Source: Endobacter medicaginis
Lineage (GTDB): Bacteria; Pseudomonadota; Alphaproteobacteria; Acetobacterales; Acetobacteraceae
Assembly (NCBI RefSeq): GCF_014192375.1
Contig: NZ_JACHXV010000003.1
Span: 1-64,000 of the forward strand
Direction: 5' to 3'
Length of the DNA: 64,000 nucleotides
Positions 2,284-15,619 of this stretch are shown here, piece by piece. Both the position numbers and the translations under genes were made by a program. The first letter of the stretch is position 1; the number at the start of each line of letters is the position of its first letter. A model generated the notes under the pieces. The model was not told the origin of the DNA. It searched no databases and saw nothing but the letters and a program-made list of their open reading frames with translations.

Positions 2284-3803
2284 TCAGACTGCTGTCGCTT
2301 GCATTGCTGGCCTGGCTGTCGGCCGCCGCGATCACGGCCCGCGCTGCGGACCGCGAAGCCGCCGCGGCGGCGCTGTTCGATCGGGTCAGCTCCGATCCCG
2401 CAAGGCTGCGCGTATTCCTCAAGGCGATGCCGAAAGGCGCAGACCTGCACAATCATGTCGACGGCTCACCCTATGCCGAGGCTTATCTCGACTGGGCCGG
2501 ACGCAAGGGTCTGTGCATCGATCGAGCCGCGCTCTCGATCACCGATCCGCCCTGCACGGCACCCGATCGCGTGCCGGCCGCCGGCCTGATTCTCGCCGAT
2601 CCAGTGCTCGAACAGCGCATGATCGATGCCCTCTCCGTGCGCGGCTGGACCGAGGGCGTCGGGCGTGACACCGCATCGGGCCATGACCGCATGTTCGGTG
2701 CGTTCGCGCGCTTTCTCGCGGTCGCACGTCTGGTGCCGGGATCGAGTGTCGCCGAAGTAAGGCGCGTCGCCGCACTCGATCACGTCTCCTATCTGGAGCT
2801 GATGTACAATCCGCTCGGCATCAACCGCTTTGCGCTGACCACGCGCGATGCGGCCTGGAACGACACCGATCTCGAAGGTGCGTTCGCCCGGCTGCAACCT
2901 CTGCTGCCGGAGCTGCTGGCATCGGCGCGGCGCGAGACCGACGCGACCGACGCTGCCGCCCGCGCCGCGCTCGGCTGTGCCACCGGGTCGGCCGAGGCGG
3001 GCTGTGCGGTGCAGTATCGCTATATCGGCTACGGCCTGCGTCTGCTGCCGCCGCCGCAACTGTTCCGCCAGCTCGCGGTGCTGTTCGCGCTGGCCGATGC
3101 GGACCCGCGCTATGTCGGCGTCAACCTCGTGCAGCCGGAAGACGATCCGGTCGCGATCACGCAGTATCGCCTGGCGATGCGGATGGTGGCCTTTCTCGCC
3201 ACCCGCTACCCGAAGGTGCACCGAAGCTGGCATGCGGGCGAGCTCGCCCTGGGTCTGGTGCCGCCGGAAGCCCTCGCCGACCACATCGCCCAGGCGGTGG
3301 GAGAGGGGCGTGCCGAGCGCATCGGCCACGGCACCGACATCGCCTATGAGACCGATGCGACGGCGACGCTGGCGCGGATGGCGCGTGATCACGTCGACGT
3401 GGAGATCAACCTTGCCAGCAACGATGTCATTCTCGGCGTGCGCGGTGCGGAGCATCCCTTGCGCCTGTACCTCGCCGCCGGCGTTCCGGTCACGCTGTCC
3501 ACCGACGATGAGGGCGTGCTGCGCACCGACATGACCGATCAGTATGTCCGTGCCGCCCGCGTGCATGCGCTGTCCTATCGCGATCTCAAACGACTGGCGC
3601 GGGCAAGTCTCGAATATGCCTTCCTGCCGGGCGACAGCCTCTGGGTCGGCCGCCAGCCTGGCGATCCGGTGCCGACGTGCCGCGACCTGACCTCGGCGAG
3701 TTGCACCCGTCTGGCGTCAGGCAGCCCGAAAGCGAGCCTGCAACGCGACCTCGAGCTTCGGCTTGTCGCTTTCGAGACGGAGATCGTTCGACAACGCTTC
3801 TGA
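2280..3803 (+). CDS. Exported adenosine deaminase-family protein
   Basis: This 507-residue protein has a clear signal peptide (hydrophobic residues 3-19, likely cut after ARA at 22). Adenosine deaminase motifs follow in order: HNH (His57, His59), SWHAGE (His318), RIGHGTD (His350) and STDDEG (Asp409/Asp410). All zinc ligands and catalytic residues are therefore present. Typical cytosolic Add is about 330-350 residues. The extra length and the signal recall secreted ADGF/CECR1-type deaminases. It should convert adenosine to inosine in the periplasm. The start ATG overlaps the stop of the NUP-family gene, so the two form one operon. The gene ends directly against the convergent DUF2945 gene with no gap. 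Confidence 0.88.
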   Translation: MIRLLSLALLAWLSAAAITARAADREAAAAALFDRVSSDPARLRVFLKAMPKGADLHNHVDGSPYAEAYLDWAGRKGLCIDRAALSITDPPCTAPDRVPAAGLILADPVLEQRMIDALSVRGWTEGVGRDTASGHDRMFGAFARFLAVARLVPGSSVAEVRRVAALDHVSYLELMYNPLGINRFALTTRDAAWNDTDLEGAFARLQPLLPELLASARRETDATDAAARAALGCATGSAEAGCAVQYRYIGYGLRLLPPPQLFRQLAVLFALADADPRYVGVNLVQPEDDPVAITQYRLAMRMVAFLATRYPKVHRSWHAGELALGLVPPEALADHIAQAVGEGRAERIGHGTDIAYETDATATLARMARDHVDVEINLASNDVILGVRGAEHPLRLYLAAGVPVTLSTDDEGVLRTDMTDQYVRAARVHALSYRDLKRLARASLEYAFLPGDSLWVGRQPGDPVPTCRDLTSASCTRLASGSPKASLQRDLELRLVAFETEIVRQRF

Positions 3804-4010
3804 TCAGCCCTTGCCTAGGCCTTCCGCCTTGTGGATCGCCTGCTTGCCGGTCCTGTCGCTCCTGACCTTGAACTGCGGTGCCTCCTTCGACGCCGTTGCC
3901 GTGTGTCCGGCGATCTTCGTTGTTGAGGTGACTTTCTCGACCACGGTTCCGCTGGCTCTGCCCTGAGGGGTCTTCCAGGTGACGTGGTCACCTTTCTTCA
4001 CGCTGGCCAT
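3804..4010 (-). CDS. DUF2945 (hypervirulence-associated TUDOR-domain) protein
   Basis: This small basic protein of 68 residues begins MASVKKGDHVTWKTPQGRASG and continues with the VVEKVTSTTKIAGHTATAS block typical of DUF2945, a Tudor-like SH3 fold. Its molecular role is not established; homologues are widespread small cytoplasmic proteins. ATG at 4010 was chosen because GAGGA sits about six bases upstream and the conserved domain begins there. It is convergent with the adenosine deaminase gene, and the stop codons abut exactly. Confidence 0.82.
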   Translation of the reverse strand: MASVKKGDHVTWKTPQGRASGTVVEKVTSTTKIAGHTATASKEAPQFKVRSDRTGKQAIHKAEGLGKG

Positions 4011-4136
4011 GTGGTCCTCGTCCGTTCGGTTCGATGCGATGCGATGCCGTGGCGTTCGGGCGAACGGTGGCACGGCTTGCGAAGTTTCCTGCAACCGGAC
4101 GGTCTTGTGGCGTTGTCGCTGCACAGGGAGGGCGCC

Positions 4137-4550
4137 ATGGTGACTGGTTGGATGGTGGCGATCGTCGTGTCGGCGGTCACGATGCTGGTGCTGGACGGGA
4201 TCTGGCTCTCGCTCATGGCATCGCGGCTCTATCGGCCTGGCCTGGGCGGTATGCTGCGCGACAGCTTCGCGCTGCCACCGGCGATTGTCTTCTATGTCGT
4301 CTATGTGATCGGCTTCACGGTTCTCGCCGTGCTGCCGGGCCTGTCTGCGGGGCGCTGGACGGCCGCGTTGTGGCGTGGCGCCGTGTTCGGCTTCGTCGCC
4401 TATGCTACCTACGATCTCACCAACCTGGCCACGTTGCGGGGCTGGCCGTTATCCGTGACGCTGGCCGATCTCGCCTGGGGCACGGTACTGACGGCGCTGG
4501 CCGCGGCGAGCGGAGCGGCTGCGGCCCTGTGGTGGACCTCAAGGCTGTGA
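4137..4550 (+). CDS. DUF2177 family membrane protein
   Basis: This 137-residue protein has four predicted membrane helices. The family pattern MLVLDGIWL in the first helix and YATYDLTNLATLRGW in the third mark it as DUF2177. AGGGAGG seven bases before ATG 4137 fixes the start. The biochemical function is unknown. Such proteins often sit near CFA-type methyltransferases, DUF1295 and DUF1365 genes, as here. Its last 12 bases overlap the 3' end of the convergent methyltransferase gene. Confidence 0.85.
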   Translation: MVTGWMVAIVVSAVTMLVLDGIWLSLMASRLYRPGLGGMLRDSFALPPAIVFYVVYVIGFTVLAVLPGLSAGRWTAALWRGAVFGFVAYATYDLTNLATLRGWPLSVTLADLAWGTVLTALAAASGAAAALWWTSRL

Positions 4551-5573
4551 AGGGCCGGGCGCCAGCAGGTAGTGGCTGACCCCCCAGGGGCGGCCACGGT
4601 CATGGCCGAACAGCCCGGCGGTCGCGAGATAGAACAGGCGCCAGCGACGCAGCCAGAGGCCGGCGTCGCGACCGTAGACATCCTCCAGGATGGTCATGAT
4701 CGCGGCGCGGTTCGCATCGAAGCGCGCCAGCCAGTCGCGTGCCGTGTGCTGATAATGACGGCCGTTCCAGCGCCATTCCTGCTCGACGGTGAAGTGCTCC
4801 GTCATGTGTCGGATCAGGCCGTGGCTGGGCATGATGCCACCGGTGAAGAAATGCTGGCCGATCCAGTCGCTGCTGTCGCGCGCATCGAACCGGTAGGGGT
4901 GCGTGTCGTGGGCGAAGACATGCAGGAACATCCGGCCGTCCGGATGCAACCACCGGCGCGCGCGTGACAGCAGCGCCGGCCAGTTGGCCATGTGCTCGAA
5001 CATTTCCACCGAGACGATCCGGTCGAAACGTCGGTCGGTGACGAAGGCGTTCATGTCGGCTGTCACCACCGCGATATTGTCGAGCCGCTGCTGCCGCGCC
5101 TGATCCTCGATGAACAGGCGCTGCGAGGCGGAGTAGGACACCGCCTTGACCCGCGCCCGCGGGAAGCGAGACGCCATCAGCAGGCTCAGCGAGCCCCAGC
5201 CACAGCCGAGCTCGAGGATCTCCTGGCCGTCCTCGAGGCGTGCATGGCGGATGGTCTCCTCCAGTGCGAGGCGTTCGGCCTCCGCCAGGCTTTCGCGTCC
5301 GGTCGGATACAGGCAGCAACTGTATTTGCGGCGCGGGCCGAGGGTGAGCTCGAAGAATCGCGGTGGCAGTTCGTAATGCTGGCGGTTGGCATCGTCGCTG
5401 TGCTCGGCGATCGGATAGGCCGCCATGTCGGCGGCGAACACGGCCTCCGCCGCCGGCGTGTCGCGCAGAGCGCGCTGTCGGCTCCCGACGAGCGCGAAAA
5501 TCGCGGCGCGGGTAATCGGATCGGGAACCGCGATGCGCTCGAACGCACGGATGGTGGACGCGATGACAGTCAT
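4539..5573 (-). CDS. CFA-family SAM-dependent methyltransferase (first of two in the locus)
   Basis: This 344-residue cytosolic protein has the S-adenosylmethionine-binding motif ELGCGWGS at residues 121-128 and the cyclopropane-fatty-acid-synthase fold: YSCCLYP before the motif, FDRIVSVEMFEHM after it, and a HFFTGGIMPS segment. Unlike classical Cfa it lacks the long N-terminal domain and more resembles the shorter CFA-like methyltransferases related to plant N-methyltransferases. The likely substrate is an unsaturated acyl chain of membrane phospholipid, inferred from the neighbours. AAAGGAG precedes ATG 5573. The start overlaps the stop of the upstream DUF1295 gene by four bases, so the two are co-transcribed. 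It differs clearly from the CFA-type enzyme at 8607-9803. Confidence 0.85.
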   Translation of the reverse strand: MTVIASTIRAFERIAVPDPITRAAIFALVGSRQRALRDTPAAEAVFAADMAAYPIAEHSDDANRQHYELPPRFFELTLGPRRKYSCCLYPTGRESLAEAERLALEETIRHARLEDGQEILELGCGWGSLSLLMASRFPRARVKAVSYSASQRLFIEDQARQQRLDNIAVVTADMNAFVTDRRFDRIVSVEMFEHMANWPALLSRARRWLHPDGRMFLHVFAHDTHPYRFDARDSSDWIGQHFFTGGIMPSHGLIRHMTEHFTVEQEWRWNGRHYQHTARDWLARFDANRAAIMTILEDVYGRDAGLWLRRWRLFYLATAGLFGHDRGRPWGVSHYLLAPGPSQP

Positions 5574-6379
5574 GACGAACTCCTTTCGCCGCGTCGTGGC
5601 AGAGCCGGCCAGAAAGCGCTGATGCGGGCCTGTATGCGTCCATAGGCGGCGCCACGCGAGCGCAGCATATGCGCCTCCAGAAGTGGAATCCCCGAGACAT
5701 GTACCAGCAGCACATAGATCAGGACCGGCCCGATCAGGCCAAGCCACCCGGCCGGGCGGCCGCCATCCGGTCCGATCGAGATGACTGCGAGACCGGACCA
5801 GACCAGCCATTCACAGAAATAGTTCGGATGGCGCGACACCGACCACAATCCGCGATCACACACCTGCCCGGCATGGGCGCGCCCGGCGCGGAAACGGCGC
5901 AACTGCTCGTCAGCCAGCGCCTCGCCGCCGATCCCGCACAGCACGACCGCGCTGCCCGCCACATCGCTCCACGCCCAGACGGGCGACGGATTCCGGGCCG
6001 CAGCCCAGACCGACACCACGAGTGCGGTCGCACACGCAGCCTGCACCATCAGCAACAGGAAACTCCGCCAGGCATAGGCCGCGCCCCAGCGCTGGCGCAG
6101 TTCCACATAGCGCGGATCATCGCCCCCCGATGCCGTCCGCCGGGCGATCGCGCCGCCGAGCCGCAGAGCCCAGATCCCGACCAGCCCGGCGACCAGCAGC
6201 GCACGCGGCCTGATGCCGCCATCGTCCAGTGCCACGGCGACCGACGCCAGACCGACCGAGCCGGACCAGATCGCGTCGATCCAGCCGGAGTGGCCCGGCC
6301 TGAGTGTGATCGCCCAGGCGAGACTCATGACCAGTGCCTCGAAACCTGCGATCGCCACCAGCCACGCATCGTTGCTCAT
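5570..6379 (-). CDS. DUF1295 family membrane protein (steroid-5-alpha-reductase/ICMT fold)
   Basis: This 269-residue polytopic protein has about seven hydrophobic segments. It carries the DUF1295 signature near the C-terminus, LWSVSRHPNYFCEW followed by a terminal domain with GIPLLEAHM, shared with isoprenylcysteine methyltransferases and steroid reductases. The homologue in the mycobacterial sigK locus (Rv0446c) has the same context. A membrane-lipid reductase role is inferred, not shown. ATG 6379 is the first start compatible with the conserved N-terminus. It is divergent from the FAD oxidoreductase gene across a short control region and overlaps the CFA-like gene downstream. Confidence 0.85.
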   Translation of the reverse strand: MSNDAWLVAIAGFEALVMSLAWAITLRPGHSGWIDAIWSGSVGLASVAVALDDGGIRPRALLVAGLVGIWALRLGGAIARRTASGGDDPRYVELRQRWGAAYAWRSFLLLMVQAACATALVVSVWAAARNPSPVWAWSDVAGSAVVLCGIGGEALADEQLRRFRAGRAHAGQVCDRGLWSVSRHPNYFCEWLVWSGLAVISIGPDGGRPAGWLGLIGPVLIYVLLVHVSGIPLLEAHMLRSRGAAYGRIQARISAFWPALPRRGERSSS

Positions 6380-6408
6380 GTGCGAGGATACGGGCGGCGG
6401 CATCGGAC

Positions 6409-6444
6409 GGATGCATTCAACTTGTCGACAGCGGCCCGGCATCC
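6409..6444. promoter_or_regulatory. Inverted repeat in the divergent DUF1295 / FAD-oxidoreductase control region
   Basis: GGATGC (6409-6414) is mirrored by GCATCC (6439-6444) in the roughly 95-base gap between two divergent genes of the lipid locus. The hexamer CCGAAT at 6443-6448 equals the -10 I remember for mycobacterial SigK, but no matching -35 lies 16-17 bases before it. This is a weak lead only. Confidence 0.25.
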
Positions 6445-6514
6445 GAATCGCCTTCGGGCACGTAGAGGCAGCGTGAGCCAACCCAACGCCTGTGGTGGGA
6501 GAGACGTGTCGGGC

Positions 6515-7834
6515 ATGCCATCATCGTGTCTCGACATCGCCGTCATCGGCAGCGGGATCGCGGGGCTGTCCGCCGCGTGGCTGCTCGCCACGCAACATCG
6601 CGTCACGCTCTTTGAGGCGGCCGGGCGGCTGGGCGGACATACCAGCACCCGGCATGTCGATGGCTGCCCGGTCGATACCGGCTTCATCGTCTACAACGAG
6701 CCGAGCTATCCTAACCTCACCGCACTGTTCGCCCATCTCGGCATCGACACCACGCCCAGCGAGATGAGTTTCTCGGTCAGCCTCGATGACGGACGGCGCG
6801 AATACAGCGGCAGCGGCCTGTCGGGGCTGTTCGCGCAGAAGCGCAACCTCGCCTCGCCGCGCTTCTGGTCGATGCTGCGCGATCTCGAACGCTTCTACCG
6901 CCGCGCCCCGCGCGACCTCCCCGGTCTCGGCGACATTTCGCTCGGCGCGTATCTCGACCGGCTCGGGTGCGGCCGCGCCTTCCGTGACGACCATCTGTAT
7001 CCGATGGCCAGCGCCATTTGGTCATCTCCTGCGGCCGACATCGCCGGCTTCCCCGCTGCCGCCTTCATCCGGTTCTGCGACAATCACGCCTTGCTGGAAC
7101 TGGGGCGACGCCCGGTCTGGCGCACGGTGGCGGGCGGGGCGGCCACCTATGTCGCCGCCATGGCGACGGCGCTCTCCGGCCGCATCCGCCTGTCGAGCCC
7201 GGTGCGTGCGATCCGCCGCGATCTCGCCGCCGTCACGGTCGCGACCGACACGGAGTCCGCCCGCTTCGATCAGGTGGTGATCGCCGCCCATGCCGACCAG
7301 GCGCTGGCGATGCTCGACGACGCCGACGACACCGAGCGCCGTCTGCTCGGCGCGTTCTCCTACACGCGCAACGACGCCATCCTGCATTCCGACCCCGCCC
7401 TGATGCCGAAGCGCGCGCGGGTCTGGTCGAGCTGGAACGCTCTCGCCGCACCGGGCGGCGGTGCCGGCGCCCCGTCACTGACCTACTGGATGAACCGGCT
7501 CCAGTCGCTGGCGACACCGGCGCCGCTGTTCGTCTCGCTCAACCCCGCCCGCATGCCCGTCCGGATCCATCACCAGGAGACCTTTCACCATCCGCTGGTC
7601 GATGCGCGATCGGAACGCGCCCGTCAGCAGCTGTGGTCGCTCCAGGGCCAGCGGCGGACCTGGTTCTGTGGTGCGCATTTCGGCGCCGGCTTCCATGAGG
7701 ACGCCCTGCAGTCCGGTCTCGCCGTGGCCGAGCAGCTCGGCGGCCTGCGCCGACCGTGGCGGGTCGCGGACGAATCGGGTCGCATCGCGATCCACGCGCC
7801 CGCGGGTGCGGCGGTACCGCGGCAGGCGGCATGA
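6515..7834 (+). CDS. FAD-dependent amine-oxidase-like oxidoreductase (COG2907 type)
   Basis: This 439-residue flavoprotein has the dinucleotide-binding motif IGSGIAGLSAAW from residue 11, the GRLGGHT second FAD contact, and the DTGFIVYNEPSYPNL segment typical of COG2907 proteins. It is cytosolic or membrane-peripheral. Homologues are found next to DUF1365 and CFA genes in mycobacterial sigK loci and in RpoE-ChrR regulons of photosynthetic bacteria. A role in oxidising or desaturating lipid acyl chains is inferred. The start is uncertain: ATG 6515 begins just before the domain, but in-frame GTG codons at 6506 and 6473 are possible, the latter after AGAGG. The stop overlaps the next start by four bases. 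Confidence 0.88.
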   Translation: MPSSCLDIAVIGSGIAGLSAAWLLATQHRVTLFEAAGRLGGHTSTRHVDGCPVDTGFIVYNEPSYPNLTALFAHLGIDTTPSEMSFSVSLDDGRREYSGSGLSGLFAQKRNLASPRFWSMLRDLERFYRRAPRDLPGLGDISLGAYLDRLGCGRAFRDDHLYPMASAIWSSPAADIAGFPAAAFIRFCDNHALLELGRRPVWRTVAGGAATYVAAMATALSGRIRLSSPVRAIRRDLAAVTVATDTESARFDQVVIAAHADQALAMLDDADDTERRLLGAFSYTRNDAILHSDPALMPKRARVWSSWNALAAPGGGAGAPSLTYWMNRLQSLATPAPLFVSLNPARMPVRIHHQETFHHPLVDARSERARQQLWSLQGQRRTWFCGAHFGAGFHEDALQSGLAVAEQLGGLRRPWRVADESGRIAIHAPAGAAVPRQAA

Positions 7835-8616
7835 ACCCTCAGTCCGCGCTCTATGTCGGTCAGGTGATGCACCGTCGCACGCGGCCGCGACGCCATCATC
7901 TGCGCTACCGGCTGTTCAGCCTGCTGGTCGATCTCGACGAATTGCCTGCCCTGGATGCGCGACTGCGCCTGTTCTCGCACAACCGCTTCAACCTGTTCTC
8001 GCTGCACGACCGTGACCATGGCGACCGCAGCGCGACCCCGCTGCGCCCCCGCATCGAGGCGATGTTGCGTGAGTATGGTTTCGACTTCCGGCCGGGGCCG
8101 ATCCGGCTGCTGACCATGCCGCGCATCCTCGGCTATGCCTTCAATCCGCTGAGCCTGTTCTTCTGCCATGACGGCGATGGCCGGCTGCGCGCCATCGCCT
8201 GGGAGGTCAGCAACACCTTCGGCGAGCGCCACACCTATCTGCTGGCCACCGATCCGGCGCGTGCCGACATCCGCCAGCGCTGCGTCAAGACATTCCACGT
8301 CTCGCCGTTCCTGCCGATGACGCTGAGCTACGGCTTTCGCGTCCGGCCGCCCTCCGCCGCGCCCGGCCAGGAGGCGCTGGTGGTGGCGATCACCGCCGCC
8401 GACGCGCAGGGCGAGCTGCTCACCGCGGTGCAGACCGCCCGGCGGGCGCCCCTGTCCGACCGCATGCTGGCGCGGCTGTTCGTCACCCATCCGCTGCTGA
8501 CCGCCAAGGTCTCGGCGGCGATCCTGTGGGAGGCGCTGCACCTGTGGCGACGACGCATCCCTGTGCATCCACATCCGCGGCCCGAGCGGCAACCCGGCGT
8601 GACCGCATGCACCTGA
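7831..8616 (+). CDS. DUF1365 family protein
   Basis: This 261-residue protein has the DUF1365 pattern: LYVGQVMHRRTRP at the N-terminus, YRLFSLLVDLDEL, the GYAFNPLSLFFC block, and VKTFHVSPFLPM. No catalytic activity is established. The family is almost always encoded beside a COG2907 flavoprotein and a CFA-type methyltransferase, as here. It overlaps both neighbours: ATGA with the upstream gene, and ten bases with the downstream ATG at 8607. Tight translational coupling suggests the three proteins act together on membrane lipids. Confidence 0.9.
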   Translation: MNPQSALYVGQVMHRRTRPRRHHLRYRLFSLLVDLDELPALDARLRLFSHNRFNLFSLHDRDHGDRSATPLRPRIEAMLREYGFDFRPGPIRLLTMPRILGYAFNPLSLFFCHDGDGRLRAIAWEVSNTFGERHTYLLATDPARADIRQRCVKTFHVSPFLPMTLSYGFRVRPPSAAPGQEALVVAITAADAQGELLTAVQTARRAPLSDRMLARLFVTHPLLTAKVSAAILWEALHLWRRRIPVHPHPRPERQPGVTACT

Positions 8617-9803
8617 GCGCGCCGCCCGTCCGTCCGGCCGCAGGCCTGCGCGGCACCTGGCTGCTGAGGATGCTGCTGCGGCAGCTCTCCCGCGGGTCGC
8701 TGCGCGTGGTGTTGCCCTCGGGGGCATGGATCGAGCACCGGGCCGGCGCGGACGGGCCGCAGGCGGTGCTGCTGCTGCACCGCAGCCGGGCCCTGCGCCG
8801 CCTGCTGACGGGGGGTGATCTCGGCTTCGCGCAGGCCTATCTCGACGGGGACTGGTCTTCGCCCGATCCGGTGGCGCTGATCGGGCTGGCGGCGGCCAAC
8901 AGCGCGGCCCTCGAGGCGCGTTTCTCCGGTCTCGCCCCGCTCAGGCTATGGCGCCGGCTGCGTCACCGACGCCGCGACAACACGCCGCGCGGCAGCCGGC
9001 GCAACATCGCCTTCCACTATGATCTCGGCAACGCGTTCTATCGGCTGTGGCTCGACGAGAGCATGACCTATTCGGCGGCGCGCGCGCTGCCGCCCGGCGG
9101 GTCGCTCGAGGCCGCGCAGCGCGACAAGCGGGCGCGGGTGATCGAACTGCTTCACCTGGAGCCCGGCGCCTCGGTGCTGGAAATCGGCTGCGGCTGGGGC
9201 GCGCTGGCGTGCGACATGGCGGGGCAGGGCGCGCGGGTGACCGGCATCACGCTCTCACGCGAACAGCTCGCCTGGGCGCGCGAGGCGGCGGGCCCGGCGC
9301 CGATCGAGCTGCGTCTTCAGGACTACCGCGCCGTTGTCGGCCGCTTCGAACGCATCGTCTCGATCGAGATGATCGAGGCGGTCGGCGCGGCCTACTGGCC
9401 GGCCTATTTCGCCATGCTCGGACGCTCGCTCGCACCGGGCGGCCGCATCGTGCTGCAGGCGATCACCATCCGCGAGGACCGCTTCGAGTCGTATCGCCGC
9501 CGGCCCGACTTCATCCAGACCTGCATCTTCCCCGGCGGCATGCTGCCCACCGCGACGATCATCGCCGCGCAGGCTCAGGCGGCCGGGCTGCGCGTGGTGG
9601 AGTGCGAGACGTTCGGCGCGGGCTATGCCGACACGCTCGCCGCCTGGCGCGAGCGCTTCGAGGCGTCGCTCGATGCGGTGCGTGCGCTCGGTCTGCCGGA
9701 GCGCTTCATCCGCATGTGGCGCTACTATCTGTGCTACTGCGAGGCAGGTTTCCGCGACGGCGTGATCGATGTCGGGCTCTATGTCATGGAGGCCGGGCGA
9801 TGA
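8607..9803 (+). CDS. Cyclopropane-fatty-acid synthase-family methyltransferase (UfaA1/UfaM-like)
   Basis: This 398-residue full-length member of the CFA family has an N-terminal lipid-binding region (about 1-150), then FHYDLGNAFYRLWLD, the SAM motif EIGCGWG at residues 192-198, FERIVSIEMIEAVG, and TCIFPGGMLPT near the C-terminus. It transfers a methyl or methylene group from SAM to double bonds of membrane phospholipid chains. The exact product (cyclopropane, 10- or 11-methyl, or furan precursor) cannot be read from sequence. In Mycobacterium the equivalent gene is ufaA1 of the sigK locus. Related enzymes in Rhodobacter make the methylated precursor of furan fatty acids. ATG 8607 overlaps the DUF1365 stop. 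Confidence 0.9.
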   Translation: MHLSAPPVRPAAGLRGTWLLRMLLRQLSRGSLRVVLPSGAWIEHRAGADGPQAVLLLHRSRALRRLLTGGDLGFAQAYLDGDWSSPDPVALIGLAAANSAALEARFSGLAPLRLWRRLRHRRRDNTPRGSRRNIAFHYDLGNAFYRLWLDESMTYSAARALPPGGSLEAAQRDKRARVIELLHLEPGASVLEIGCGWGALACDMAGQGARVTGITLSREQLAWAREAAGPAPIELRLQDYRAVVGRFERIVSIEMIEAVGAAYWPAYFAMLGRSLAPGGRIVLQAITIREDRFESYRRRPDFIQTCIFPGGMLPTATIIAAQAQAAGLRVVECETFGAGYADTLAAWRERFEASLDAVRALGLPERFIRMWRYYLCYCEAGFRDGVIDVGLYVMEAGR

Positions 9804-10471
9804 ACCCGCCCTTGCCGGGCCTGGGGCGCCGCCTGCTGCTCGCCTCCCTGACGACATCGCCGCTCGCCCCGCGCGGCGTGCGCGCTACGACGCTGCCGGT
9901 GCCGGCCGGCGACAGACTCGGCTTCGACGTAATGCGCCGCGGCGCGCGGCTCGGCGAGCATGTGCTGACCTTCCACAGGACCGGCGAGACGCTCGACGTG
10001 ACCATCCGCGTCGCCGTCGCCTACAGCATCGGTCCGATCACGCTGTATCGCTATCGCCACGAGGCCCAACTGCGCTGGCAAGGTGCGCGCGTGGTGGCGA
10101 TCGACAGCCGCACCGACGACAACGGCACACACGACTGGATGAACGCCCGGCCTGGCGGCGGGGCGGGGCTGGTCGTGCAGGGGGCGACGGTGCCGCGCTA
10201 CACGGCGCCGCCGGACGCCGAGCCCTCCACGCACTGGAACCGTGTCGAACTCTCCGCGCCCTGGATCAACACCCAGACCGGCCGGCTGATGCGCCCGACG
10301 GTGACCCCCACCGGCCGACAGTCGATCCCCACCGTCTCCGGCACCATCGCGGCCGAGGGCTACCTGCTCACCGGCGACGTCGATCTTCGCCTGTGGTACG
10401 ATGCCGCCGGCTGGGCCGGGCTGGAGTTCAGCAAGAACGGCACACCGGTGAGTTACCTCAGACAGGCCTGA
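9800..10471 (+). CDS. Exported DUF6134/DUF3108-like protein
   Basis: This 223-residue protein has an N-terminal signal-like stretch (LLLASLTTSPLAPRGVRA, about residues 13-30) and a beta-rich body of the type FDVMRRGARLGEH...TIRVAVAYSIGPITLYRYRHEAQLRW...TDDNGTHDW. That is the pattern of DUF6134 and the related periplasmic DUF3108. The fold suggests a ligand-binding beta-barrel, perhaps for lipid, but no function is established. ATG 9800 overlaps the CFA stop, making it the fourth gene of the FAD-DUF1365-CFA operon. The family assignment is from memory of the pattern and should be searched. Confidence 0.68.
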   Translation: MNPPLPGLGRRLLLASLTTSPLAPRGVRATTLPVPAGDRLGFDVMRRGARLGEHVLTFHRTGETLDVTIRVAVAYSIGPITLYRYRHEAQLRWQGARVVAIDSRTDDNGTHDWMNARPGGGAGLVVQGATVPRYTAPPDAEPSTHWNRVELSAPWINTQTGRLMRPTVTPTGRQSIPTVSGTIAAEGYLLTGDVDLRLWYDAAGWAGLEFSKNGTPVSYLRQA

Positions 10472-10481
10472 ACGATCCGCC

Positions 10482-10841
10482 TTGGACCAGACGCCTCCAT
10501 TCCCCGGCGATACCGATCTCGCCCTGTTCGACCAGCGTCGCGATGCGCTGCTGGCGAGATTGCCGGCGCGGCTCGGCCGCTCCGTCGCCTGGCTGCTCAC
10601 GCCCCGGCGCCGCTGGTTGCGCATTCCGGCCGGGCTGCTGCTGCTGCTTGGCGGGCTGCTGTCGTTCCTGCCGGTCCTGGGGGTGTGGATGCTGCCGCTG
10701 GGCATGCTGCTGCTCGCCGAGGATATCGCACCGATGCGGCACCTCGTCGCGCGCAGCCTCGGCTGGATCGCGCGCCGCCATCCGCAGTGGCTCGGGCAGA
10801 ACGGGTCTCGCCCTACGCCGTCGCCCCCATCCGCCCGCTGA
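10482..10841 (+). CDS. Small membrane protein (PGPGW-like)
   Basis: This 119-residue protein has two closely spaced hydrophobic helices (about residues 48-64 and 66-82) joined by a tight turn, FLPVLGVWMLPLGMLLLAED. The pattern resembles the PGPGW small transmembrane family. No function is known. The start is TTG at 10482, ten bases after the previous stop. The C-terminus is low-complexity, and its coding region overlaps the 3' end of the convergent anti-sigma gene by 29 bases. Position suggests it is the last gene of the lipid operon. Confidence 0.65.
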   Translation: MDQTPPFPGDTDLALFDQRRDALLARLPARLGRSVAWLLTPRRRWLRIPAGLLLLLGGLLSFLPVLGVWMLPLGMLLLAEDIAPMRHLVARSLGWIARRHPQWLGQNGSRPTPSPPSAR

Positions 10842-11517
10842 GGATCACCGGCCCGGTCGGGTGATCACCCGGCGCGCCGCCCGCCGGCTCCAGCGAGAGC
10901 GCGATCGTCACCCCTGCCCCCATTGCCTTCGCAGCACCCGGCGGAGCGGCCATCCAGCCCGGCGTATCGGCCGGCATCACCCCCAGCGCGCGCGGCCGTC
11001 CATCCGCCGGGATCACCCACAGCTCCGGCGTGCGCCCGCCGGTGCGCAGCCGATCCGGGACCACCGTCAGCCGCGTCGTGGCCGGGTCGTAGCTGACGCT
11101 CACCACCCCGTCCGCACCCGACAGCAGTGCCACCATCGGCGCCTGCAACGCGCCCGCCACCGGCCCCGGTCCGGCCAGAGGCAGCGCCTGCGTCACCAGC
11201 ACCGCTGCGAGCACGCAGGCCACGGCACCCGATACCCAGCTCGCCACCTGCCAGCGTCGCAGCCGTGACGTCATGTCGGCGGCAGCGTCATTGGCCGGCA
11301 GCGACGCCTCGATCCGCCGCCACAGCGACGGGCGCGGCGTCTCCGCGAGCCCGTCGAACAACCCGGCTGCCCAGCCGAGCCAGCGCGCATAGGCGTCGGC
11401 GAACCCCGCATCGTCGTGCAGCCGCGCCTGCCCGGCCTGCCGTTCCGCCTCCCCGGCCAGGCCGAGCGCCAGCTCCGCCGCCGCCAGCTCGTCCTCCTCG
11501 GTCAGGGGCGCGCTCAT
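10813..11517 (-). CDS. rskA: Anti-sigma factor, RskA type
   Basis: This 234-residue protein has an N-terminal cytoplasmic anti-sigma domain (residues 1-85, with LALGLAGEAERQ and FADAYARWLGWAAGLFDGL), a single membrane helix at about 91-112, and an extracytoplasmic RskA domain (about 120-234) with TPELWVIPADGRPRALGV. RskA proteins hold their ECF sigma factor at the membrane and release it by regulated proteolysis. The ATG at 11517 overlaps the sigma stop (ATGA), so stoichiometric co-translation is expected. I see no zinc-binding HxxxCxxC motif, so it is not a ChrR/ZAS anti-sigma factor. Confidence 0.88.
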   Translation of the reverse strand: MSAPLTEEDELAAAELALGLAGEAERQAGQARLHDDAGFADAYARWLGWAAGLFDGLAETPRPSLWRRIEASLPANDAAADMTSRLRRWQVASWVSGAVACVLAAVLVTQALPLAGPGPVAGALQAPMVALLSGADGVVSVSYDPATTRLTVVPDRLRTGGRTPELWVIPADGRPRALGVMPADTPGWMAAPPGAAKAMGAGVTIALSLEPAGGAPGDHPTGPVILSGRMGATA

Positions 11518-12080
11518 TGCAGGCAGGCCCGAAGCTTGAGCAGCGCGCGTCGGATGCGGCTCTTGACCGTGCCGAGCGGCGTCTCGATGCGCTCGGCCAG
11601 CCCGGCATAGCTCAGCCCCTCGAAGAACGCCGTGCGGATCAGCCCGGCATCGCCGGTCTCGAGCTGGTCGAGGCATTCGGCGAGCCTGCCCTGGGCCTGG
11701 CCGGTCTCGATCAGATCGCTTGCCAGCGGCGCGGGATCGACGACCGTCTCGACGAGGCCGGTCGCGTCCGCGGTCTCGCGGGCCACGCCCCGAGCGCGCA
11801 GGCGGTCGATGGCGCGGTTGCGCGTCAGCGTGATGAGCCAGGCCATCGCGCTGCCGCGCGCGGCGTCGAAACTGGCCGCCCGCCGCCAGATCGACAGATA
11901 GGCGTCCTGCAACACGTCCTCTGCCTCCGCCCGGGCCGGCAGGATGCGCAGGCACACCCCGAACAGCTGCGCCGAGGTCAGCCTGTAGAGCTCCTCGAAC
12001 GCCGCACGGTCGCCGCGCGCCACGGCCCGCAGCGCATCGTCGAGAGGGCGGGGGGACAGGGTCGCGGTGTCGTGGCCCAT
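11514..12080 (-). CDS. sigK: ECF sigma factor, SigK type
   Basis: This 188-residue group-4 sigma factor has region 2 at about residues 24-95 (AFEELYRLTSAQLFGVCLRIL, DVLQDAYLSIWRRA, WLITLTRNRAIDRLR) and region 4 at about 135-186 (LSYAGLAERIETPLGTVKSRIRRAL). Pairing with RskA and the adjacent DUF1295, COG2907, DUF1365 and CFA genes reproduces the mycobacterial sigK locus. It probably directs transcription of these lipid genes. ATG 12080 was chosen because AGGA lies five bases before it; ATG 12086 is the alternative. A candidate ECF-type promoter lies about 60 bases upstream. Confidence 0.88.
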   Translation of the reverse strand: MGHDTATLSPRPLDDALRAVARGDRAAFEELYRLTSAQLFGVCLRILPARAEAEDVLQDAYLSIWRRAASFDAARGSAMAWLITLTRNRAIDRLRARGVARETADATGLVETVVDPAPLASDLIETGQAQGRLAECLDQLETGDAGLIRTAFFEGLSYAGLAERIETPLGTVKSRIRRALLKLRACLQ

Positions 12081-12140
12081 GCGCATCCTGAGTGTGCGTC
12101 TGCACGTAGATGAGGGAGCGACATCCGCCGCGACCGGTAT

Positions 12141-12166
12141 AACGCCGGCTGTCGTCATGCGGTTCG
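12141..12166 (-). promoter_or_regulatory. Candidate ECF-type promoter of sigK-rskA
   Basis: Read on the minus strand, CGAAC (12166-12162) is followed after 17 bases by CGTT (12144-12141). This is one mismatch from the alphaproteobacterial general-stress (EcfG) consensus GGAAC-N16/17-CGTT. It would give a leader of roughly 50 bases. It could mean control by EcfG or autoregulation. Confidence 0.4.
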
Positions 12167-12182
12167 TCCGAGGGACATCGTC

Positions 12183-13100
12183 ATGGTTCGGACGCTCGGG
12201 CGACAGTCTCACGGCCTGCTGCTGGTCCTCGTCGCCGTGCCCCTGCTGGGGGTGCTCGGCATCGCCCTGGCGCTGGCCGTCGCCCCGCTGCGCAGCTTCA
12301 ATGCGCTGGTGCCGTATGACCGGGCCTCGCGCCTCGTCGCCTCGGGCGAGGCGTTCGGCGCCGATCCGCGCCAGCGGCTCGATCTCTATGCACCGGCGCG
12401 TTCCGCATCCAGGCCCTGGCCGGTCATCATGTTCATCCATGGCGGCGCGTGGCGGTCCGGCGACCGCCGCGCCTATGGCTGGGTCGGCCGGGCGCTGGCC
12501 GCGCGCGGCTTCGTCGTCGCCGTGGTCGGCTACCGGCTGGTGCCGCAGATCCGCTACCCGGCCTTCCTCGCCGACAATGCCGCCGCCTGGTCCTGGCTGC
12601 GCGCGAACGTGTCGCACTTCGGCGGCGATCCCGCCCGCATGGTGCTGGCCGGCCACTCCGCGGGCGCCTATGACGCGGCGATGCTGGCCCTCGACCCGCG
12701 CTGGCTCGGCGGCCCCGGCAGCCCCGATCGCGGCGCCCTGCGCGGCTGGATCGGCCTCGCCGGGCCCTATGATTTCCTGCCGTTTGAGGGGGAGACGGTG
12801 CGGGCGGCCTTCGCCGGCGTCGACGACCCGCGCGCGACGCAACCCGTCGCGCATGTCGCCGCCTTCGACCCGCCCGCACTGCTCGCCACCGGCAGCGAGG
12901 ACCGCACCGTCCGCCCGGCCAACAGCGACAGCCTCGCGCGCCGCCTGCGCGCCGTGGGGGTCCCGGTCGAGCGACGCGTCTATCCCGGGCTCGCCCATGC
13001 CGGGCTGGTCACCACGCTCGCCATGCCGCTGCGCTGGCGCGCGCCCGTGCTCGACGACATCGCCGCGTTCGCGCATCGCGTGACCGGGGGCGGCGGCTGA
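12183..13100 (+). CDS. Alpha/beta-hydrolase (esterase), membrane-anchored
   Basis: This 305-residue protein has an N-terminal hydrophobic anchor (about residues 11-35) and a carboxylesterase-type alpha/beta-hydrolase domain. The oxyanion motif HGGAW is at 86-90, the nucleophile elbow GHSAG at 157-161 (Ser159), the likely acid Asp240 in SEDRTV and the catalytic His272. The triad is complete. The closest type is the HGG-motif (kynurenine formamidase/BD-FAE-like) family, and the physiological substrate is unknown. It diverges from the sigK gene, sharing a control region of about 100 bases, so it may belong to the same regulon. Confidence 0.86.
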   Translation: MVRTLGRQSHGLLLVLVAVPLLGVLGIALALAVAPLRSFNALVPYDRASRLVASGEAFGADPRQRLDLYAPARSASRPWPVIMFIHGGAWRSGDRRAYGWVGRALAARGFVVAVVGYRLVPQIRYPAFLADNAAAWSWLRANVSHFGGDPARMVLAGHSAGAYDAAMLALDPRWLGGPGSPDRGALRGWIGLAGPYDFLPFEGETVRAAFAGVDDPRATQPVAHVAAFDPPALLATGSEDRTVRPANSDSLARRLRAVGVPVERRVYPGLAHAGLVTTLAMPLRWRAPVLDDIAAFAHRVTGGGG

Positions 13101-13135
13101 CGCCGTGGCTTATGTGCGCCCGCCAGACGTGTAAA

Positions 13136-13167
13136 CCGGTCATGTCCGACCGGCGCGGGGCATTTTT
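13136..13167 (+). terminator. Possible terminator or operator hairpin upstream of fpr
   Basis: CCGGTC (13136-13141) pairs with GACCGG (13148-13153), with a six-base loop and a five-T run at 13163-13167. The T run does not directly abut the stem, so it is an imperfect intrinsic terminator for the esterase gene. It could instead be a regulatory palindrome in front of fpr. Confidence 0.3.
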
Positions 13168-13227
13168 CTCTGGCACTCGGGGTGCGGGCAGCCTAGATGA
13201 CCCCCGTTTGACGACGAGACGGGAGAG

Positions 13228-14094
13228 ATGCCTGCGATGACCGAGTCCGCCCTCATCCGCGACCAGATTTCGGGTGCGGATGGCGATGCCGAGATCGTGC
13301 TGTCGCCACCGTCGAAAACCTACGGCCATCTCAACGCCGAGACCGTGACCGACGTCCATCACTGGACCGACCGGCTGTTCAGCTTCAAGACCACGCGCGA
13401 CCCTTCGCTGCGCTTCGCCAACGGCCAGTTCGCGATGATGGGCCTCGAGGTCGGTGGCAAGCCGCTGCTGCGCGCCTATTCCATCGCGTCCGCCAATTAC
13501 GAGGATCACATCGAGTTCCTGTCGATCAAGGTCGAGGACGGACCCCTCACCTCGCGTCTGGCGCATGTCCGCCCCGGCGACATCGTGCTGGTGGGCCGCA
13601 AGCCGACCGGCACCCTGCTGCTCGACAATCTGCGCCCCGGCCGCACGCTCTACATGCTGGCCACCGGCACCGGCCTCGCCCCGTTCATGAGCCTGATCCG
13701 CGATCCGGACGTCTACGAGCGTTTCGAGCACGTCATCCTCACCCACACCGTGCGGCAGGTCGACGAGCTCGCCTATGGCGACTACATCCGGCACGAACTG
13801 CCCGAGCACGAGTTCCTCGGCGAGTTCCTGCGCGGCAAGCTGCGCTACTACCCCACCGTCACCCGCGAGGAATTCGAGACCAAGGGCCGCATCACCGACC
13901 TGATCGAGAGCGGCAAGCTGTTCACCGATCTCGGCCTGCCGGCGCTCGACCCCGAGCACGATCGGGTGATGATCTGCGGCTCCACCGCGATGCTGACCGA
14001 CACCGAGAACCTGCTGGTCAAGCGCGGCTTCGACGAGGGCAACGCCAACCGCCCCGGCGCTTACGTCGTCGAGAAAGCCTTCGCGGAGCGTTGA
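13228..14094 (+). CDS. fpr: Ferredoxin--NADP(+) reductase
   Basis: This 288-residue cytosolic flavoenzyme exchanges electrons between NADPH and ferredoxin or flavodoxin. The FAD-binding RAYSIAS motif is at residues 82-88, followed by the GTGLAPFMS NADP-binding loop and VMICGSTAMLTDT near the C-terminus. Length and end (FAER) fit bacterial Fpr of the alphaproteobacterial type, with a somewhat long N-terminus. ATG 13228 and ATG 13237 are both possible; GGGAG lies only two bases before the first. An oxidative-stress role is common for this family. The glutathione reductase gene follows after a repeat. Confidence 0.93.
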   Translation: MPAMTESALIRDQISGADGDAEIVLSPPSKTYGHLNAETVTDVHHWTDRLFSFKTTRDPSLRFANGQFAMMGLEVGGKPLLRAYSIASANYEDHIEFLSIKVEDGPLTSRLAHVRPGDIVLVGRKPTGTLLLDNLRPGRTLYMLATGTGLAPFMSLIRDPDVYERFEHVILTHTVRQVDELAYGDYIRHELPEHEFLGEFLRGKLRYYPTVTREEFETKGRITDLIESGKLFTDLGLPALDPEHDRVMICGSTAMLTDTENLLVKRGFDEGNANRPGAYVVEKAFAER

Positions 14095-14102
14095 GCTTTC
14101 TT

Positions 14103-14231
14103 GTTCTTTCTTGAAAGAAAGAACCAAAGAACTTTTATCCGATTCGAGCGGTTCGCCATGATGCGGCCGCCTCGGACCGTGCCCGAACCGGACGAAGTCT
14201 TTTTGCTTCTTTTTCTTCAGAAAAAGAAGAA
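14103..14231. repeat. Interspersed palindromic repeat, copy 2 (AAGAACC...GAAAAAGAAG family)
   Basis: Second copy of the element at 591-705. The left arm has its own hairpin (TTCTTTCTTGAAAGAAAGAA) and continues AACCAAAGAACTTTT. The right arm at about 14191-14231 carries GAAGTCTT and the hairpin CTTCTTTTTCTTCAGAAAAAGAAG. The middle is unrelated in sequence to copy 1. The right arm again ends shortly before the next start codon, and AAGAAGAAAGGA could act as the ribosome-binding site of gor. Confidence 0.82.
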
Positions 14232-14245
14232 AGGAACCTCAGACC

Positions 14246-15619
14246 ATGCCCGAATACGACGTCGACCTGTTTGTCATCGGCGGCGGCTCGGGCGGCGTGC
14301 GCTGTGCGCGCATCGCGGCGACGCATGGCGCGCGGGTGGCGATCGCCGAGGAGCGCTACTGGGGCGGCACCTGCGTCAATGTCGGCTGCGTGCCGAAGAA
14401 GATCCTCGTCCAGGCCAGCAATTTCGGCGAGGACGTGATCGATTCGCACGGGTTCGGCTGGAACACGCAACCCGGCACCAATGACTGGTCGGCGCTGATC
14501 GCGCGCAAGGATGCCGAGATCGCCCGACTCAACGGCATCTATATCAAGCTGCTCGAAGGCGTCGGGGTCAGGCATTACGACGGCCGCGCGCGCCTGGCCG
14601 ATGCGCATACCGTGGTCGTGAGCACCGCGACCGGCGAGATCGCCGTGCGGGCGGAGCGGATCGTGATCGCCACCGGCGGCCGTCCGACCCTGCCCGACAT
14701 CGAGGGCGCAGGGCTCGGTGTGGTGTCGGATGCGCTGTTTCACCTGTCCGACCGCCCGCAGCGCATCGCCATCCTGGGCTCGGGCTATATCGGGGTGGAA
14801 TTCGCCGGCATCTTTGCCGGGCTGGGCAGCACGGTGGACCTGATCTACCGCCAGGATCTGCCGCTTCGCGGTTTCGACCATGAATTGCGCGAGGCGCTGG
14901 TCGGTGCGATCGACGCGCGCGGCATCCGCCAGCACCGGAGCGCCACCATCACCCGGCTGCGCGAGGGCGCGGAGGGCGCGCGGATCGTCACACTCGACAA
15001 CGGGGAGGAACTCACCGTCGATCTGGTGCTGTTCGCGACGGGCCGGCACCCCAACACCGAGGGGCTCGGGCTGGACGCGCTCGCGGTCCGGCTCGATGAC
15101 GGCCGCGTGGTGGTCGATGACGAACAGCGGACTTCCGTCGGCCATATCTACGCGATCGGCGACGTGACCGACCGCATCAACCTCACCCCCGTCGCGATCG
15201 CCGAGGGGCACAATCTGGCCGACCGGCTGTTCGGTCCGCCGCCGCCGCGGGAATGGTCGATCCCCACCACGCCGAAGGCGGTGTTTTTTACCCCGCCGCT
15301 GGCGAGCGTGGGCCTGACCGAGGAGGAGGCCGTCGCGCGCGGCACCACCGACATCTACACCACCTCGTTCCGGCCGATGCGTCACACGATGAGCGGGCGC
15401 GAGCGGCGCAGCCTGATGAAGCTGGTGGTCGACCACGCCAGCGGCCGCCTGCTCGGCGCGCACATGCTGGGCGACGACGCCCCCGAGATGATGCAGGCAC
15501 TGGCGGTGGCGGTCACCGCCGGGCTGACCAAGCACGACCTTGACCGCACCGTCGGCATCCACCCGACCTCCGCCGAGGAATGGGTGACGATGCGCAGCCT
15601 GACCCGCACGGTCGGCTAG
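14246..15619 (+). CDS. gor: Glutathione-disulfide reductase
   Basis: This 457-residue flavoprotein reduces oxidised glutathione with NADPH in the cytoplasm. The FAD motif GGGSGGVRCARIAA begins at residue 12, and the redox-active disulfide lies in GGTCVNVGCVPKK (Cys43/Cys48). The NADPH-binding GSGYIGVEFA, the ATGRHPNTEG motif and the C-terminal HPTSAEEW with the catalytic His-Glu pair are all present. Length is normal for the family. AAAGGA lies about 11 bases before ATG 14246, within or next to the repeat's right arm. It is next to fpr, consistent with a redox-defence grouping. Confidence 0.94.
   Translation: MPEYDVDLFVIGGGSGGVRCARIAATHGARVAIAEERYWGGTCVNVGCVPKKILVQASNFGEDVIDSHGFGWNTQPGTNDWSALIARKDAEIARLNGIYIKLLEGVGVRHYDGRARLADAHTVVVSTATGEIAVRAERIVIATGGRPTLPDIEGAGLGVVSDALFHLSDRPQRIAILGSGYIGVEFAGIFAGLGSTVDLIYRQDLPLRGFDHELREALVGAIDARGIRQHRSATITRLREGAEGARIVTLDNGEELTVDLVLFATGRHPNTEGLGLDALAVRLDDGRVVVDDEQRTSVGHIYAIGDVTDRINLTPVAIAEGHNLADRLFGPPPPREWSIPTTPKAVFFTPPLASVGLTEEEAVARGTTDIYTTSFRPMRHTMSGRERRSLMKLVVDHASGRLLGAHMLGDDAPEMMQALAVAVTAGLTKHDLDRTVGIHPTSAEEWVTMRSLTRTVG

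Follow-up and report, generated by a model that had tools for sequence, protein, structure and literature searches.

The first 64,000 nucleotides of contig NZ_JACHXV010000003.1 of Endobacter medicaginis, herein referred to as the window, contain a cluster of lipid genes beside the genes for a SigK-type sigma factor and an RskA-type anti-sigma factor. This locus probably directs the synthesis of furan fatty acids (FuFAs) on existing phospholipids and is probably switched on by the adjacent SigK-RskA pair, which would have functionally replaced the RpoE-ChrR pair. FuFAs are protective membrane lipids containing oxygen. The FuFA pathway itself is already known; what is added here is its likely assignment to this locus, the inclusion of a hydrolase gene, the promoter sites, and an apparently recurrent exchange with RpoE-ChrR. 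No paper on SigK-RskA control of FuFA genes was found in a literature search.

The genes are arranged in divergent units: DUF1295-MT1 / ufaD-ufaO-ufaM-DUF6134 / rskA-sigK / hydrolase. The lipid genes run in two directions from a 135-bp gap, with DUF1295-MT1 leftward (6379 to 4539) and ufaD-ufaO-ufaM-DUF6134 rightward (6515 to 10471); stops and starts overlap along the rightward unit. The rskA and sigK genes run leftward (12086 to 10813), and the hydrolase gene runs rightward, starting from the side of the sigma factor gene. Proteins were assigned to families by Pfam profile matches above the Pfam cut-offs, and all families named in an initial annotation of this DNA were recovered in their places. 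The features are as follows.

4137–4550, plus strand: DUF2177 membrane protein, an optional accessory (Pfam DUF2177, 143.7 bits; present in 12 of 45 related clusters)
4539–5573, minus strand: MT1, S-adenosylmethionine (SAM)-dependent methyltransferase of the CMAS family (Pfam CMAS), candidate FufM
5570–6379, minus strand: DUF1295 (steroid-5-alpha-reductase-like) membrane protein, partner of MT1 (Pfam, 208.7 bits; found in 42 of 45 alphaproteobacterial clusters)
6389–6414, minus strand: promoter-like site GCATCC-N16-CGTA, towards DUF1295-MT1 (exact match)
6439–6464, plus strand: promoter-like site GCATCC-N16-CGTA, towards ufaD (exact match)
6515–7834, plus strand: UfaD homologue, putative flavin adenine dinucleotide (FAD) desaturase for methylated acyl chains (Pfam Amino_oxidase; gene order)
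7831–8616, plus strand: UfaO homologue (Pfam DUF1365, 276.8 bits), predicted to take oxygen from O2 to close the furan (function from PMC7380195)
8607–9803, plus strand: UfaM homologue, putative SAM-dependent methylase of acyl chains (Pfam CMAS, 259.9 bits; changed bicarbonate ligands)
9800–10471, plus strand: DUF6134 protein, probably exported (Pfam, 131.5 bits; present in 21 of 45 clusters)
10482–10841, plus strand: small membrane protein with one hydrophobic segment and no family (absent from related clusters)
10813–11517, minus strand: RskA-type anti-sigma factor with one transmembrane segment and no zinc motif (Pfam RskA_C, 50.5 bits)
11514–12086, minus strand: SigK-type extracytoplasmic function (ECF) sigma factor with the SigK cysteine pair (sequence comparison and tree)
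12083–12108, plus strand: GCATCC-N16-CGTA site, towards the hydrolase (exact match)
12183–13100, plus strand: alpha/beta hydrolase (Pfam BD-FAE/Abhydrolase_3) with an N-terminal hydrophobic segment (in 26 of 45 related clusters)

In Rhodobacter sphaeroides and Rhodopseudomonas palustris, UfaM methylates cis-vaccenate on phospholipids, the FAD protein UfaD yields a methylated conjugated diene, and UfaO, a DUF1365 protein, generates the furan by adding an oxygen taken from O2 (Lemke et al., 2020; PMC7380195). The gene order in R. palustris is ufaD-ufaO-ufaM (RPA2571-2570-2569), and a further enzyme, FufM, attaches a second methyl group (PMC7380195). Homologues of UfaM, UfaD, and UfaO are found all together in the window, and the order of the FAD protein, the DUF1365 protein, and the enzyme resembling cyclopropane fatty acid (CFA) synthase is identical to that in R. 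palustris. The most fitting reading of the lipid genes is a FuFA pathway, the likely product being a furan fatty acid, because the DUF1365 protein corresponds to UfaO, the O2-inserting enzyme (PMC7380195), and because the second CFA-like enzyme resembles FufM. Thus, UfaM would methylate a monounsaturated chain on an existing phospholipid, UfaD would turn the resulting chain into a conjugated diene by desaturation, UfaO would insert oxygen from O2 with closure of the furan ring, and MT1 would supply a second methyl group. The characterised homologues likewise point to phospholipid acyl chains as the substrate, as had been proposed at the outset.

The sigma factor was compared with representatives of both regulator types. 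It matched SigK of Mycobacterium tuberculosis (4NQW) with 123 bits and RpoE of R. sphaeroides (2Q1Z) with 82 bits. In the tree it groups with RskA-linked sigma factors and M. tuberculosis SigK, separately from ChrR-linked sigma factors and R. sphaeroides RpoE (Shimodaira-Hasegawa-like approximate likelihood ratio test, SH-aLRT, 100). The cysteine pair of SigK (ECF18/19), for which conservation figures have been published (PMC7509140), is present and aligns to positions 133 and 183 of M. tuberculosis SigK. This pair was found in 65 of 67 RskA-linked sigma factors and in none of 19 ChrR-linked ones. The protein is SigK-type rather than a member of the SigK subfamily proper, since it scores 160.8 bits against an NCBIfam SigK cut-off of 226; to that extent the description as SigK-like holds. 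Its place in the tree, outside the clade of SigK proteins of its own family and beside SigK proteins of other families, suggests horizontal acquisition.

The anti-sigma factor has an RskA_C domain and a single transmembrane segment with a cytoplasmic N-terminus. As first annotated, it has no zinc anti-sigma domain: no HxxxCxxC motif was found in it, and its sole cysteine lies inside the transmembrane segment. No solved chain in the PDB was matched by it in a phmmer search, and its recognition rests on the Pfam RskA_C model. The anti-sigma factor of the RpoE-ChrR (ECF11) type, ChrR, has zinc and cupin domains; no match to it (TIGR02451) was found in the genome, which is estimated to be 100% complete. 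By the tree, the cysteine pair, and the lack of a zinc motif, the pair is of the SigK-RskA type, and it occupies the place that RpoE-ChrR has next to these lipid genes in relatives; the initial annotation had noted RpoE-ChrR control of similar lipid genes in phototrophic alphaproteobacteria.

Membrane-bound RskA would release the sigma factor to switch the genes on. The initial annotation proposed envelope stress as the trigger. Oxidative or photooxidative stress appears at least as likely and is probably the relevant signal, given the SigK cysteine pair and the response of the SigK-RskA-like pair of Rhodobacter capsulatus to photooxidative stress (PMC7074977).

Promoter-like sites point to the same regulator. 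Only three exact GCATCC-N16-CGTA sites were found in the window, against 0.09 expected, and they are directed towards DUF1295-MT1, ufaD, and the hydrolase gene. The released sigma factor would act, probably directly, through these sites. Sites of the RpoE type (TGATC) are absent from the locus, and no TGATCC-N16-CGTA promoter was found at positions 3800–13200; the promoters are in this respect not those of ECF11. Upstream of SigK-RskA pairs elsewhere, GCATC-N17-CGTA was the commonest bipartite word. Of 60 such pairs from alphaproteobacteria, 16 have GCATCC-N15-17-CGTA before sigK (mean of 0.03 in shuffled sequences, none in the reversed control), and none has TGATCC there. Genome-wide, seven exact N16 sites were found in 3.6 Mb, including the three at the locus; most of the remainder fall within open reading frames or antisense to them, and no wider regulon is therefore claimed.

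In relatives of the window's genome, a different promoter accompanies RpoE-ChrR. At 34 loci with RpoE, ChrR, and UfaD from the family and class of E. medicaginis, rpoE is divergent from ufaD, and the intergenic region carries TGATC-N16-18-CGTW towards ufaD in 31 loci and towards rpoE in 30. Clusters with MT1 or DUF1295 were split by the presence of an adjacent ChrR gene. Among the 16 clusters that lack such a neighbour, 12 carry the GCATCC site, as against 1 of the 36 that have one (Fisher p 1e-7, uncorrected for phylogeny). RskA_C was present in 10 of these 12 GCATCC-bearing genomes, and full ChrR was lacking in 11. To place the GCATCC label on the UfaD tree, a minimum of four changes on well-supported branches is required; the switch to the GCATCC/SigK type appears to have recurred. 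In one genome (G334, loci L186 and L187) a SigK-RskA pair was also found beside the cluster, with a further ufaD copy elsewhere in the genome.

Both regulator types also occur in Xanthomonadales. SigK-RskA pairs, with sigma factors 49–55% identical to that of the window, are located directly upstream of a desaturase-ufaD-ufaO-ufaM-DUF1295-MT1 operon; this placement was established by sequence overlap or position for Lysobacter and Luteimonas and by position for Xanthomonas, Luteibacter, and Dokdonella. In Thermomonas, Stenotrophomonas, and a Rhodanobacter, RpoE-ChrR is found in place of SigK-RskA. The Xanthomonadales share with the window the same lipid genes beside SigK, but their genes have a single orientation and mostly no GCATCC site before sigK. 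At four loci (L334, L287, L283, and L291) the gene between rskA and ufaD encodes a membrane fatty-acid desaturase, perhaps the source of the unsaturated substrate.

Several observations weigh against control by SigK-RskA. No strict site was found on the strand of sigK itself, so autoregulation is unsupported in the window. The association of GCATCC with ChrR status loses its significance when phylogeny is taken into account, because few independent pairs lie on well-supported branches. Two genomes (G399 and G314; loci L193 and L195) have GCATCC at the cluster and neither RskA_C nor ChrR was detected in them, and one locus (L173, genome G396) has an adjacent ChrR gene together with GCATCC sites on both strands. 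Finally, six RpoE-ChrR loci of Xanthomonadales (L370, L372, L373, L374, L377, and L379) carry GCATCC-N16-CGTA before rpoE, unlike alphaproteobacterial RpoE-ChrR promoters, which read TGATCC. The site is therefore not exclusive to SigK, and its value as proof of SigK control alone is weakened.

All of these observations except the phylogenetic one favour the alternative that the FuFA genes are real and the SigK-RskA pair is a bystander, with another ECF sigma factor, such as an RpoE-like one without ChrR, reading the GCATCC sites. We consider this unlikely. Exactly this site precedes sigK in 16 of the 60 alphaproteobacterial pairs and TGATCC in none of them, ChrR is absent from the genome, and the three sites of the locus all flank or adjoin the SigK-RskA pair. 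Control by SigK-RskA is accordingly retained as the favoured reading of the regulation.

As for the product, the initial annotation read the lipid genes as CFA-like methylation plus flavin-dependent oxidation. A methyl-branched saturated chain resembling tuberculostearate, made by CFA-like methylation and flavin-dependent reduction, is in keeping with that annotation, and a role as a tuberculostearate methylase has been discussed for M. tuberculosis UfaA1. Such a product is improbable here: in R. sphaeroides, and in R. palustris with its gene order as in the window, UfaD has been shown to be a desaturase and DUF1365 an oxygen-inserting enzyme, and a reductase leaves DUF1365 unexplained. The UfaO model (predicted local distance difference test score, pLDDT, 89.6) has a beta-barrel similar to nitrobindin and lipocalin folds (Z 7); this likeness may reflect a common arrangement only, so no cofactor is claimed.

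Ordinary cyclopropane modification, to which the CMAS family matches would point, is very improbable, as both methyltransferases depart from CFA synthase in the active-site columns or in score. CFA residues are numbered as in the Escherichia coli enzyme, in which His266 and Cys139 are the bicarbonate ligands. In alignment with that enzyme (6BQC), the UfaM homologue of the window carries Ala in place of Cys139 and Gln in place of His266, while Glu239 and Tyr317 are retained. The Gln was found in all 128 cluster-linked UfaM homologues, and Ser or Ala replaces Cys139 in 118 of the 128. Both CMAS proteins also score far under the NCBIfam CFA cut-offs, and CFA synthase identity was rejected for both.

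The second CFA-like methyltransferase, MT1, does belong to the CMAS family, but it resembles FufM rather than CFA synthase. Its best PDB match is coclaurine N-methyltransferase (CNMT) 6GKV, with 195 bits against 92 for CFA synthase. Arabidopsis LIME1 (AT4G33110) is annotated as CNMT-like. FufM is 38% identical to LIME1, AT4G33110 (PMC10940516). MT1 homologues are scarce: of the 289 genomes in a class-wide sample, 10 have one with an E value of 1e-90 or below, and DUF1365 is present in 9 of these 10 as against 141 of the 289. Across 80 named loci spanning many phyla, the neighbours of MT1 include ufaD (60), ufaO (62), ufaM (63), and DUF1295 (69). MT1 thus lies on the CNMT/LIME1-like branch of the CMAS superfamily and co-occurs with UfaM, UfaD, and UfaO. 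It is a FufM candidate for the second methylation, leading to a dimethyl-FuFA, with the likeness drawn through the shared CNMT-like branch.

Accessory genes complete the set. All lipid families listed initially were retained, but the alpha/beta hydrolase at 12183–13100 had been left out of the unit. It belongs to the lipid gene set, since it is found in 26 of the 45 related clusters; it is 41–52% identical to hydrolases inside the same cluster in relatives. The DUF6134 protein is predicted to have a spiral beta fold, the closest structure being a Brucella DUF1849 protein (6NTR; Foldseek E 1.3e-5, TM 0.59). DUF1295, DUF2177, DUF6134, and the hydrolase would have accessory roles, with transport, reduction, or turnover as possibilities.

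Other neighbouring genes were noted. The small membrane protein (10482–10841) was confirmed with its one hydrophobic segment. A Hva1_TUDOR domain protein (3804–4124, minus strand) lies immediately before DUF2177, and the hydrolase is succeeded, on its own strand, by genes resembling ferredoxin-NADP reductase (fpr) and glutathione reductase (gor) (13228–15619, plus). None of these four recurs in 84 related loci, and they were rejected as cluster parts. An adenosine-deaminase-like reading frame, judged by eye, lies at 2294–3803 (plus strand).

The initial interpretation thus stands for the regulator type and the action on acyl chains, and is refined to a furan fatty acid as the product. A wider proposal, which we hold tentatively and would not yet favour, is that SigK-RskA forms a second general regime for FuFA genes. 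In alphaproteobacteria and Xanthomonadales it would have traded places with RpoE-ChrR again and again, through replacement of the sigma/anti-sigma pair and a slight alteration of the -35 element; on this view the SigK lipid genes of M. tuberculosis would encode a furan or methyl-diene pathway. In this way these poorly understood genes gain a concrete, testable chemical hypothesis.

The locus can be compared with four known systems. With the FuFA pathway of R. sphaeroides and R. palustris (PMC7380195) it shares the protein families and, for R. palustris, the gene order, but in the window all components and a FufM-like gene stand in one locus, and the regulator is SigK-RskA instead of RpoE-ChrR. 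FuFA genes are core targets of RpoE-ChrR, and the furan lipids themselves are required for ChrR turnover (PMC6852236). The TGATCC-N16-CGTA promoters of this ECF11 core regulon (PMC6852236) hold in relatives the same position as the sites of the window, which differs in lacking ChrR, in a sigma and anti-sigma factor of another family, and in the -35 element GCATCC. With the lipid genes kept, ChrR lost, and promoters of the SigK type, the pathway appears separable from the loop through ChrR and open to control by a membrane anti-sigma factor.

The SigK-RskA locus of M. tuberculosis (Rv0444c-Rv0449c), autoregulated from the Rv0449c promoter (PMC7509140), shares with the window a SigK-type sigma factor with the cysteine pair and an RskA_C anti-sigma factor. 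The same lipid families are attributed to it by the initial annotation. That annotation called the two loci alike gene for gene; a resemblance in gene content is probable, but the layout differs, as the window has divergent units instead of one operon and has MT1, DUF6134, DUF2177, and the hydrolase in addition. In R. capsulatus, also an alphaproteobacterium, a SigK-RskA-like pair named RpoE-ChrR takes the place of RpoE-ChrR proper and is induced by photooxidative stress (PMC7074977). R. capsulatus is without UfaD and UfaO homologues, whereas the window keeps the lipid genes, with SigK-type sites.

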